DNA of 64,000 nucleotides, from NCBI GenBank assembly GCA_015061605.1, contig SUWH01000007.1, positions 39,772 to 103,771 of the forward strand, in the 5' to 3' direction. The notes under the pieces are model-generated. The model was not told the DNA's origin. It did no database searches and saw only the letters and a program-made list of their open reading frames with translations. Below are positions 50,585-64,000 of this stretch, piece after piece (the stretch's first letter is position 1; each line of letters starts with the position of its first letter). The stretch comes from Lentisphaerota bacterium (GTDB lineage Bacteria > Verrucomicrobiota > Lentisphaeria > Victivallales > Victivallaceae). The position numbers and the translations under genes are program-made.

Positions 50585-51250
50585 GTGAATGACGAAACAT
50601 TATTTTGCGGAGCTTTGATTTACCTGATTGCTCTGCTGGGATTTCTGATTCCGTTGAAATGGCTTCCCCGGTGGGGGCGATTGGTTGGTTATGTGCTTTT
50701 CTGCATCATAAATATCGGTTTGGCTTTTATTTACCGTGGATTGGCTTATCTTTCTTTCAACATTCAATCCGGCGAACGGGCGTTGAAATTCTTTACGGAA
50801 TTATCTGAAACGCTTGCCAATGACACGATGAAAATTGAATATCTGCCAATGCCAAGTTATACTGCAAGTATCATTTGGGGGATCATCTCGCTGCTGGTGG
50901 TGATCGCCGGATTTGTGGTACTGGGATTGAAAATCCGCTGGTACAGTTATGTAATAACTATTGCGGCGCTGCTTTGTGCGTCTGGCATACTGGGAATACA
51001 AACGCCACATTCAGAAAAGCGGTATATAAATGATTCAAACGCTTTGCGGCAAAAGACCTATCTTCTTATTGAGCAGAAACGCAAAGAAAATGTAAGCAAT
51101 AAGCAAATATCCGAAGCGATCAAGGCAAATTTGAAAGATTTCCGTTATAATTACGAAAACCGCGAAGAGGAAAGAGAATCATCCGAAAAAATCCTGACAG
51201 CCATAAAAAATTTGCAGCCGGAAACCAAAATGGAGGCAGCAGAACGATGA
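50585..51250 (+). CDS. Membrane protein of unknown function
   Basis: 221 aa from a GTG start, with AAAGGA upstream at the end of the previous gene. Four hydrophobic segments: two near the N-terminus (GALIYLIALLGFLIPL, LVGYVLFCIINIGLAFIY) and two central (IIWGIISLLVVIAGFVVLGL, YVITIAALLCASGIL). The tail of about 80 residues is charged and helical (LIEQKRKENVSNKQISEAIKAN). No family recognised. Its stop overlaps the next start. Confidence 0.68.
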   Translation: MNDETLFCGALIYLIALLGFLIPLKWLPRWGRLVGYVLFCIINIGLAFIYRGLAYLSFNIQSGERALKFFTELSETLANDTMKIEYLPMPSYTASIIWGIISLLVVIAGFVVLGLKIRWYSYVITIAALLCASGILGIQTPHSEKRYINDSNALRQKTYLLIEQKRKENVSNKQISEAIKANLKDFRYNYENREEERESSEKILTAIKNLQPETKMEAAER

Positions 51251-52275
51251 AAACAGAAAAAAACAAAAGATCGTTCAGCAAAACAATTTGCAGTATTTTG
51301 CTTATAATTTTCATTTCAATTCTTCTTGCAGGCTGCTACCACGGGTTCGGAAGGGAGCTCTTTTACCGGTTTGATTATTATAAAATAAAGGTGGCAGATA
51401 TTGACGGCAATCCGGTAAAAAATGCGGAAATAGAATTTTCATACCAAAATAACTTTGATATTTCAGGGAAACACACCCATTATCACCATGAAAAAATCTA
51501 TACAAATAAAGAGGGTAACGCAACCCGCATCGGCTGGGTACGGCATGAACCGGAACTGCGCTGGATCTCTGCCGATGGGTATTATTCCCGCAGTTGTTAT
51601 AATGAAGTCAAAGACCGGGAAACAATGATAACTCTTTATCCGAAACGGAAACCGGTTCCTCTCCTTGGTGCAAGATTGAATTTCAGATTAAAAGGGGAAT
51701 ATCAGGGCAAATTATATTTCCGTTTTTCTGATTTGGAATTGAGCATCCCGCGACACCGGGGATCACGCATCGCTTACCGTTGGGATGAGCAGCAGAAAAA
51801 AGAGAAGTGGGAATTGCGGAACGATCCGGATTTTCAACCGGATCTTATTCTTGATTTCGATCAGAACAGATTTGTTTCCATTGAGTTTGCTTCCGCAACC
51901 ATTCCGGAAATAAACCGGTATCATTCTGTATTCAACGGTCTCTATGAAGCTCCCGTTGACGGTTATAAAAGAATCAATTGGCCGCTGAATGAAAACAACC
52001 GTTTTTTCAAACTGCCGATAGCGTTCACCTTTCCATATCAGAATAAAATCTGCTATGGCGCAGTTACATTGCTGGACTCTGATGGATACGGAGAAATTGA
52101 GCTCCATTTTCAGCTCAATCTCACCGGAAGCAGGAATCTGGAACGGGGATACGGAACTGCAAAAACAAAACCGGAAGACACTCTGATTTATCAGCAGTAT
52201 AAGTTATGGGCAAGCACCCGGAGTTTTACCCCTGATGTGATCATAAAAGCCGGAGAGGTTCATTTGACAAAATAA
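51247..52275 (+). CDS. Lipoprotein with Ig-like domain, unknown function
   Basis: 342 aa. Signal sequence with lipobox LLAGC, so probably lipid-anchored. After the cysteine comes a carboxypeptidase-regulatory-like beta domain (YYKIKVADIDGNPVKNAEIEFSYQN ... YTNKEGNATRIGW), then a larger beta-rich region without recognised motifs. It overlaps the preceding membrane gene by 4 bp and closes this run of four coupled genes. Confidence 0.72.
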   Translation: MKTEKNKRSFSKTICSILLIIFISILLAGCYHGFGRELFYRFDYYKIKVADIDGNPVKNAEIEFSYQNNFDISGKHTHYHHEKIYTNKEGNATRIGWVRHEPELRWISADGYYSRSCYNEVKDRETMITLYPKRKPVPLLGARLNFRLKGEYQGKLYFRFSDLELSIPRHRGSRIAYRWDEQQKKEKWELRNDPDFQPDLILDFDQNRFVSIEFASATIPEINRYHSVFNGLYEAPVDGYKRINWPLNENNRFFKLPIAFTFPYQNKICYGAVTLLDSDGYGEIELHFQLNLTGSRNLERGYGTAKTKPEDTLIYQQYKLWASTRSFTPDVIIKAGEVHLTK

Positions 52276-61472: not shown

Positions 61473-61501
61473 CTTGTCGCGGCGTAATGCAATGAAGCCG
61501 G
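61473..61501 (+). repeat. Dispersed palindromic repeat, copy a
   Basis: Begins CTTGTCGCGGCGTA and ends GAAGCCGG with ATGCAAT between. Three more copies lie at 61960, 62094 and 62223 with different centres. Confidence 0.8.
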
Positions 61502-61607
61502 AAGCCAACGACCGCAGACTTGTCAAGAGACAGCCCACTCTTCTCCGCCGTCCGTTGTTTTTTATGAGACAGCTGTGAAAAAAATAGATTTTTATGGCTG
61601 ACGGGGG

Positions 61608-61636
61608 TTGTAAAATCAGCAAAATGGTAGTATCTT
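61608..61636 (+). promoter_or_regulatory. tRNA-Ser promoter
   Basis: -35 TTGTAA (61608-61613), 17-bp spacer, -10 TATCTT (61631-61636). The predicted transcript start is about 7 bp before the tRNA. Confidence 0.6.
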
Positions 61637-61649
61637 ATGAAATGTTCGC

Positions 61650-61737
61650 GGAGAAATGGTCGAGTGGTTTAAGGCAGCGGTCTTGAAAACCGCCGAGGGG
61701 CAACTCTCCGAGGGTTCGAATCCCTCTTTCTCCGCCA
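61650..61737 (+). tRNA. tRNA-Ser (anticodon UGA), CCA encoded
   Basis: Acceptor arms GGAGAAA and TTTCTCC pair fully. Anticodon stem GCGGT/ACCGC encloses CTTGAAA with TGA at 61684-61686, reading UCA serine codons. A long variable arm (GAGGGGCAACTCTC region) marks a class II tRNA, and the T arm GAGGGTTCGAATCCCTC is canonical. Discriminator G then CCA. A T8 run follows at once. Confidence 0.97.
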
Positions 61738-61787
61738 TTTTTTTTGCTATTTTCCAAGCGGTGGACAAAAATCACTGTAAAAATAAT

Positions 61788-61830
61788 AAATCTCAAGGTT
61801 GCAAGTAAACTTGCCCTTGAGATTTTTCAT
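61788..61830 (+). terminator. Strong hairpin terminator downstream of tRNA-Ser
   Basis: AAATCTCAAGG (61788-61798) pairs with CCTTGAGATTT (61815-61825); inside it GCAAG-TAAA-CTTGC forms a second stem. TTTTTC follows. Probably ends transcription from the tRNA promoter. Confidence 0.7.
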
Positions 61831-61944
61831 TTTTACGTTGTTACTTTCTGCATGACGCAGAAAGCGTGATTTTTTTATGGGTTGCCCTGCGCTTCTCGAC
61901 CGGAGGTCTGCGATGCTCACGCTCGTCGTCGCGTTGCTCCGCCG

Positions 61945-62024
61945 TCGAATCCCTCTTTCCTTGTCACGGCGTAGCCCGGATGGGCGAAGACAGATCCGCC
62001 ATTTTTTTTGCAAAAAAAATGGCG
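61945..62024 (+). repeat. Broken copy of the tRNA-Ser 3' end, interrupted by a 35-bp repeat and folded back
   Basis: TCGAATCCCTCTTTC (61945-61959) and TCCGCCATTTTTTTTG (61995-62010) match the tRNA 3' end and its flank exactly, but are separated by 35 bp of the dispersed repeat (copy b, 61960-61994). The right part then continues as a perfect 28-bp palindrome (61997-62024) that mirrors the CGCCAT8 stretch. Confidence 0.9.
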
Positions 62025-62093
62025 AACGAAGACGCAAGTCTTCTCTTCACTGTGCGAAGCACAACTTCACTCAAAAGGCGCAGCCTTTTCTTC

Positions 62094-62122
62094 CTTGCCA
62101 CGGCGTAATGCAATGAAGCCGG
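62094..62122 (+). repeat. Dispersed palindromic repeat, copy c
   Basis: CTTGCCACGGCGTA ... GAAGCCGG with the same short centre as copy a; two base differences from copy a. Confidence 0.8.
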
Positions 62123-62222
62123 GACATCTTCACCAAACTTCAGAGAAGACTTACTTGTGAAGTCGTTTCATTCCGCTAACGCTCCATTCCGCTTGTGAAG
62201 AGGTCAGCTTGCGCTGCCCTTG

Positions 62223-62259
62223 CTTGTCACGGCGTAATCTGCGGAGCAGATGAAGACGG
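62223..62259 (+). repeat. Dispersed palindromic repeat, copy d
   Basis: CTTGTCACGGCGTA, then an ATCTGC-GGA-GCAGAT hairpin, then GAAGACGG. The centre differs from all other copies but is again self-complementary. Confidence 0.8.
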
Positions 62260-62320
62260 ATGAAGTTTTCTCCCTGCGGGAGTAAGGATGGTGTTATCTT
62301 TTACTGCGCTTCGCTTACAC

Positions 62321-62347
62321 GGCGGCAAGCCGCCTTGATTTTTTTCT
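62321..62347 (+). terminator. Rho-independent terminator candidate
   Basis: GGCGG-CAAG-CCGCC stem-loop followed by TTGATTTTTTTC, 39 bp before the small membrane gene. Confidence 0.55.
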
Positions 62348-62385
62348 TTTGCGGTGATATATTTATTCCCAATAGGAATTGCAAT

Positions 62386-63913: not shown

Positions 63914-64000
63914 ATGGAAATAAACGATATTGAAGTCATTGCTCAAAACAATCTTGAAAAAGCCTTGCAGGTCATTGAAAAAAGCGGTGTCCGGCAGGCT
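63914..64000 (+). CDS. Unidentified protein, N-terminal 29 residues (runs off right edge)
   Basis: Open from ATG 63914 to the window end; begins MEINDIEVIAQNNLEKALQV, a helical, charged N-terminus. AGG lies nine bases upstream and a good promoter precedes it, which supports a real gene. Too little sequence is present to name it. Confidence 0.55.
   Translation, partial: MEINDIEVIAQNNLEKALQVIEKSGVRQA

Follow-up and report, generated by a model that had tools for sequence, protein, structure and literature searches.

The 3' end of the tRNA-Ser(UGA) gene that lies near the right end of the window, by which is meant the whole 64,000-nucleotide stretch of DNA analyzed here, recurs downstream in two pieces. 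This feature is probably a single-unit array of a repeat family that resembles the tRNA-linked repeats (TLRs) of E. coli, produced by T-loop-anchored insertion and module exchange and later split by a hairpin. In E. coli, where TLRs have been on record since 1978, neither their function nor their origin has been explained. The same architecture is now found in another phylum, where it is common enough for empty and filled sites to be compared; this comparison, together with tRNA-specific T-stem pairing and the exchange of modules, makes the origin of TLRs directly testable.

The tRNA-Ser(UGA) locus

Contig C40 of the incomplete MAG G000 (2.56 Mb, 88.7% complete) terminates at position 64000, so that the window is its right end. 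The tRNA and the parts of the repeat locus lie on the + strand, apart from the palindrome, to which no strand is assigned. ARAGORN places tRNA-Ser(UGA), with an encoded CCA, at 61650-61737, and exact direct repeats delimit a source segment at 61716-61747 that runs from T55 to CCA and includes the TTTTTTTTGC trailer. The last 22 nt of the tRNA and the T8GC trailer are copied: 61716-61730 recurs at 61945-61959 (T55 to position 69; 15/15, offset 229), and 61731-61747 recurs at 61995-62011 (TCCGCCA plus T8GC; 17/17, offset 264). Given these two offsets, the 35 bp at 61960-61994 split a copy of 32 bp; they form an imperfect hairpin (CTTGTCACGGCGTA...GACAGA) inserted precisely into the copy. The split recurrence had been described in the initial annotation, as had a perfect mirroring of the CGCCAT8 stretch, and both descriptions are accurate: the arms at 61997-62010 and 62011-62024 are complementary at 14/14 positions and form a perfect palindrome of 28 bp (61997-62024), a type of trailer palindrome that is also present at other tRNA ends.

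Between the tRNA and the copy lie three further elements. A Y-shaped spacer fold, a three-way junction with an outer stem, a long terminator-like arm, and a short arm, occupies 61763-61877 and is defined by a covariance model and by covariation. The sequence GGGTT at 61879-61883 is the 5' half of a rebuilt T-stem and pairs with AATCCC of the copy, a pairing specific to the tRNA. A GC-rich hairpin insert (GCC...CCG; 61884-61944), a module common to several tRNA loci, stands in the place of the T-loop. Beyond the copy, alignment reveals a multi-hairpin region at 62024-62360 that is near-identical to one located 3' of tRNA-Ser(cga) in G000; similar regions also occur 3' of Ser-gct (G021) and His tRNAs. 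The last gene before the contig end (62732-63589) encodes a protein with a BRO-N domain (Pfam PF02498, E=2e-13) that weakly resembles DinD/DdrC.

Distribution of the repeat family

A DNA search with 61640-62030 retrieves the same region behind further tRNAs of G000, and the tRNA-Ser(UGA) unit is shared with at least three related MAGs (G020, G031, and G012). Within the downstream flank of its own gene, the 3' 22-mer recurs with at least 20 of 22 identities at 7/40, 4/36, and 4/34 tRNAs of three MAGs; the corresponding counts are 0 for upstream regions and about 0 for mismatched tRNA/flank pairs. The recurrence of tRNA ends is thus far beyond chance. When split or decayed copies are added by eye, about 10 of 40, 8 of 36, and 6 of 34 tRNAs in the three MAGs have units, and unit counts are lower bounds, as several G000 contigs (C40, C16, C18, and C4) end near tRNA arrays, probably owing to the repeats.

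Tandem units of about 180-233 bp are found behind Asp, Glu, Arg, Leu, Tyr, Thr, Cys, Gln, Pro, Gly, and Ser tRNAs. The end of each tandem unit is the 3' end of that locus's own tRNA, with 22/22 identity in many arrays. Copies start at T55, and the base before is G in the listed units. Each locus carries one to four full units; copies proximal to the tRNA are more often intact, and distal copies are more often decayed. The Gly-gcc locus of G029 (L163, G029:C23) has, after the tRNA, one full unit and seven short repeats consisting of the T-arm only, mostly of 82 bp. Three units of 161 bp lie 3' of a tRNA-Met on a 4.7-kb RGIG5270 contig (L119), where the TCAA variant of the T-loop is tracked in the copies. 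A copy of tRNA-His in G000 (L047, G000:C47:89903-92089) is partial and begins in the anticodon loop; it shows the GGTT|GCC...G|T layout of the other copies and bears a CTTGTC hairpin within its T-loop.

Named records with the T-loop block beside tRNAs are Lentisphaerae/Lentisphaeria MAGs, many of them with ruminant-gut names. Pattern matches to the block outside Lentisphaerae had no tRNA array nearby and were set aside as chance or coding matches.

The rebuilt T-arm

Each copy is preceded by the 5' T-stem half of its own tRNA (e.g., GGGTT at the window Ser locus, GTGGTT at Tyr, GAGGTT at Gln, and TCGGTT at Thr), followed by the GC-rich two-hairpin block in the place of the T-loop, TCRA, and the remainder of the copy. 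Pairing at T-stem positions 49-51:63-65 is found in 60/81 cases compared to 44.1 in permutations (P=0.0002), and identity of the T-stem half to the own tRNA is 48 compared to 30.7. For a second set, taken largely from other genomes, T-stem pairing is 38/63 compared to 30.3 (P=0.0066).

Comparison with E. coli TLRs

The E. coli TLRs (Egan and Landy 1978, Rudd 1999; summarized in PMC8144298) include the tyrT/rttR repeats and rrA/rrB/rrF. There are 22 at ten loci, and the 3' end of a unit is identical over 18-19 bp to the end of the upstream tRNA or rRNA (PMC8144298). According to the same paper, no function is known for TLRs, and three of them bind Hfq and CsrA in vitro; beyond this paper and an editorial naming it, no further study was found in the literature on TLRs. 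Direct reading of the K-12 tyrTV and rrnB loci reveals that the copies there are also split by GC-rich hairpin blocks, and at tyrTV the T-stem half AAGGTT precedes the hairpin block.

Both systems share a position directly behind tRNA (or 5S) genes, one to five units, and a copy of the gene's own 3' end. In contrast to the 18-19 bp of E. coli, the Lentisphaeria units duplicate 22 nt plus 7-10 nt of trailer from T55; they also have a large AT-rich Y-shaped spacer fold and occur at about a quarter of the tRNAs in one Lentisphaeria family. A search of six loci against Rfam returned only tRNA at the gathering cut-off and no rtT among the weaker matches. Membership in the E. coli rtT/TLR sequence family was therefore rejected, there being no detected sequence similarity to any Rfam family. 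Judged by their layout, the Lentisphaeria units are best classed as a sequence-unrelated variant of the TLR architecture, and the E. coli TLRs are the closest known system.

Empty sites and the proposed insertion

The tRNA-Arg(acg) locus of G000 is empty and reads tRNA-CCA-AATATTAGCCCTC. Its flank, from 12 to 1396, aligns with 244-1628 of the G020 flank at 90.7% identity (about 1.4 kb, collinear), and positions 1-29 of the G000 flank are present at the tRNA in G020 as well; 232 bp thus lie between tRNA and flank in G020, with the tRNA end and AATATTA duplicated. The comparison also draws on a SIG82 contig (L130) and a sheep-colon contig (L093). At a second locus, tRNA-Ser(gct), G020 is empty and G021 is filled, with the native trailer following the copy. 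The Arg-acg alignment shows that a 232-bp unit entered there, with the tRNA end and about 7 bp being duplicated. The empty sites amount to two cases, each between MAGs that are not very close, and the duplication may be stepwise, with a duplication of the 3' end followed by insertion into the T-loop, instead of a single event.

A unit consists, in order, of the tRNA's own 3' end and T-run, the Y-shaped palindromic spacer, the 5' T-stem half, and the hairpin block that substitutes for the T-loop. The spacer includes a terminator-like hairpin, and the copied 3' end closes the T-stem. As Arg-acg shows, with Ser-gct as a second case, a unit enters between the tRNA gene and its native flank and duplicates the segment from T55 to about 7-10 nt past CCA. 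Because the tRNA end is duplicated upon entry, the tRNA remains whole and N spacers lie between N+1 3' ends. Arrays would then grow and exchange through recombination. In the window, the mobile hairpin split the copy at a later stage, and two further hairpins came to lie within 270 bp.

Exchange of modules between loci

T-loop blocks are 97-100% identical across different tRNAs within one genome (e.g., the near-identical pairs Glu-ctc/Glu-ttc, Pro-tgg/Pro-ggg, and Ser-gct/Arg-ccg), and blocks at the same tRNA in different genomes reach at most 91% identity. Sequence comparison thus indicates that modules, above all the T-loop block, have been swapped among the tRNA loci of one genome, with the 3' ends staying locus-specific. 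Foreign ends are rare and are found in copies outside any tRNA: the last Leu-taa copy in G020 (L150, G020:C25) bears a Leu-caa end (21/22), and the Glu-ctc copy in G020 (L239, G020:C27) has Glu-ttc letters. The order of the two Arg-acg spacers in G029 is opposite to that in G020.

Even without transposition, arrays could come to share modules through homologous recombination or gene conversion among themselves, a serious alternative for the spread of modules. Extended to the units themselves, it would have them arise by homologous recombination and slippage at palindromes, with template switching at the trailer hairpin followed by gene conversion. Mirror palindromes and hairpins inserted in loops are common here, and the near-identity of T-loop blocks within genomes would follow from the same process. 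This account is nevertheless doubtful, as it does not account for why copies constantly begin at T55 after a G, for the N+1 layout, or for the gain of 232 bp in one step at Arg-acg.

The Y-shaped spacer fold

The Y-fold sits between CCA plus T-run and the next copy and comprises an outer stem, a long arm, and a short arm; the long arm, with its A-tract/T-tract, resembles an intrinsic terminator. Across 20 sequences, 95.0% of cells are paired compared to 78.7 +/- 0.9% in shuffled sequences, compensatory change is found in 21 of 30 pairs (13.0 in shuffles, 3-11 in slid controls), and the covariation score is 0.473 compared to 0.163. The covariance model scores the window at 61763-61877 with 98 bits (E=1.4e-17), a sequence that was in its training set. 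In G000 the model identifies 10 places at E<1e-8, all 3' of tRNAs, and each of the 37 loci fetched at E<=1e-6 has a same-strand tRNA upstream. Among 388 genomes of the phylum there are matches in 14, namely 11 of those sampled from the genus of the window and 3 from a second genus in that family, a range that covers units with the Y-fold and misses units lacking it. Weak matches on both strands at 51053-51366 of the window (E 0.003-0.3) have no tRNA and correspond to an imperfect inverted repeat only.

G-U pairs make up 3.2% of the Y-fold pairs; the figure is 10.1% for tRNAs from these genomes and 17% for shuffled spacers, although the AT-rich composition could partly account for the low value. 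The fold energy on the other strand is equal or better. Because G-U pairs are few and both strands fold equally well, we infer that the palindrome is conserved as DNA rather than as RNA. These observations weigh against the view that the units encode a structured regulatory RNA, an sRNA derived from the tRNA transcript and kept by selection, with the repeats arising by ordinary tandem duplication; such an sRNA has been claimed for rrA/rrB/rrF of E. coli. The strong compensatory change and the location within tRNA transcripts are compatible with such an RNA, as is the in vitro binding of Hfq and CsrA by the rrnA/B/D TLR RNAs of E. coli (PMC8144298), but the units are patchily distributed across strains and tRNAs and match no Rfam family. 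A regulatory RNA is accordingly an unlikely explanation. Host function is not needed to explain the units, and the ending of tRNA transcripts by arm 1 of the fold is likely a side benefit.

Under the preferred reading, insertion would be a site-specific reaction that is anchored in the T-loop and acts on folding DNA, as suggested by palindromes that nearly lack G-U pairs and fold as well on one strand as on the other.

Tyrosine recombinases, cassettes, and att sites

Integron cassette arrays are built from attI and attC sites with a GTTRRRY core. The arrays described here resemble them in having N units with N+1 short cores, a structured, sequence-variable hairpin at the unit end whose last arm is the next core, and blocks that fold better on the bottom strand. 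They differ in that the units lack a GTTRRRY core and ORFs and the core is the tRNA end; furthermore, no integron integrase was found above the cut-off in G000, where TIGR02249 stayed below it (MAG 88.7% complete). Three PF00589 proteins are present in this MAG of 88.7% completeness, and they are XerC-like, XerD, and an integrase at tRNA-Arg. The units might constitute a cassette system acting on folded ssDNA, in which the T-loop would be attI-like and the hairpin T-arm attC-like, XerC/D or a resident integrase would act in trans, and the E. coli TLRs would be relics; this proposal is improbable. If it were true, a tyrosine recombinase would capture units without genes behind tRNA genes and shuffle them there.

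Tyrosine-integrase islands reportedly have their att sites at tRNA 3' ends (Williams 2002). Tyrosine integrases of about 440-470 aa lie directly behind Arg-acg, Ser-tga, Ser-gct, Glu-ctc, and Glu-ttc tRNAs in the genus of the window (loci L259, L255, L200, L257, L261, L256, and L228), and tRNA att sites thus exist in this genus; no second att (attR) copy is present on the short contigs of these integrases. Island att sites share with the repeat units the block of identity from the T-loop to the 3' end and the restoration of the tRNA upon insertion. The units differ in having no integrase or genes, a distal copy whose T-loop holds a hairpin block, and an arrangement in tandem arrays. The tRNA att sites are a phenomenon separate from the repeat units.

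It is highly improbable that the window feature is itself an island relic, with the tRNA as attL and the split copy as attR of an element now deleted or still present: the copy spans the T-loop to the 3' end plus trailer, as in tyrosine-integrase att sites, and integrases do adjoin the tRNAs listed above, but about a quarter of tRNAs are followed by gene-free units of the same architecture whose spacer folds are conserved, the unit recurs at tRNA-Ser(UGA) in G020, G031, and G012 without an island signature, and att scars lack a rebuilt T-arm. Conservation in relatives without an island is, in part, the finding that the initial annotation had named as refuting its reading. No integrase was found between the tRNA and the copy or in the 2 kb up to the contig end (64000), and the window has no integrase with a second att bounding an element, neither of which the unit requires for its explanation. 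The initial annotation, which had read the feature as a relic of integration, was thus right to see a true duplicate of the tRNA 3' end, of the insertion-at-tRNA kind; the island origin is not borne out, with a unit of about 230 bp and a family at many tRNAs.

Mobile hairpins and trailer palindromes

Copies of the CTTGTC...GGA hairpin are located at 61473, 61960, 62094, and 62223. In addition to the copy that splits the tRNA end, one lies upstream of tRNA-Ser(UGA) (61473-61503), a second (62094-62123, 30 bp) is missing in both aligned paralogues, and a third (62223-62260, 38 bp) is missing in the Ser-cga paralogue. Relative to the latter, each of the intervals 62094-62123 and 62223-62260 is a clean insertion that lacks a target duplication. 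The 35-bp hairpin is a separate repeat, precisely inserted, and the absence of its two sisters from the paralogous region bears out the suggestion that a miniature element invaded later. The repeat had been called dispersed and is rather rare: there are 6 exact occurrences of CTTGTCACGGCGTA in 2.56 Mb, and 4 copies fall within 61473-62236 (2 with one mismatch). Similar hairpins split the Asp and Arg-acg copies, and one is found in the loop of another hairpin in the Gly array of G029.

REP/RAYT-type palindromic repeats are, like the 30-38-bp CTTGTC hairpin, small mobile hairpins precisely inserted. The CTTGTC hairpin differs in having few copies, clustered near tRNAs, and no Y1 transposase in G000. 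A search for Y1 transposase (PF01797) in the incomplete MAGs G000, G012, G015, G020, G021, and G031 yielded none, and a Y1/RAYT transposase was rejected as the driver, since it is missing from many carriers.

The same mirrored trailer is also found 3' of tRNA-Ser(gct) in G020, with equivalents at tRNA-Pro(cgg) and Val tRNAs. In the Ser-cga paralogue, the palindrome arms are about 50 bp apart, and the spacer between them forms another hairpin at the apex.
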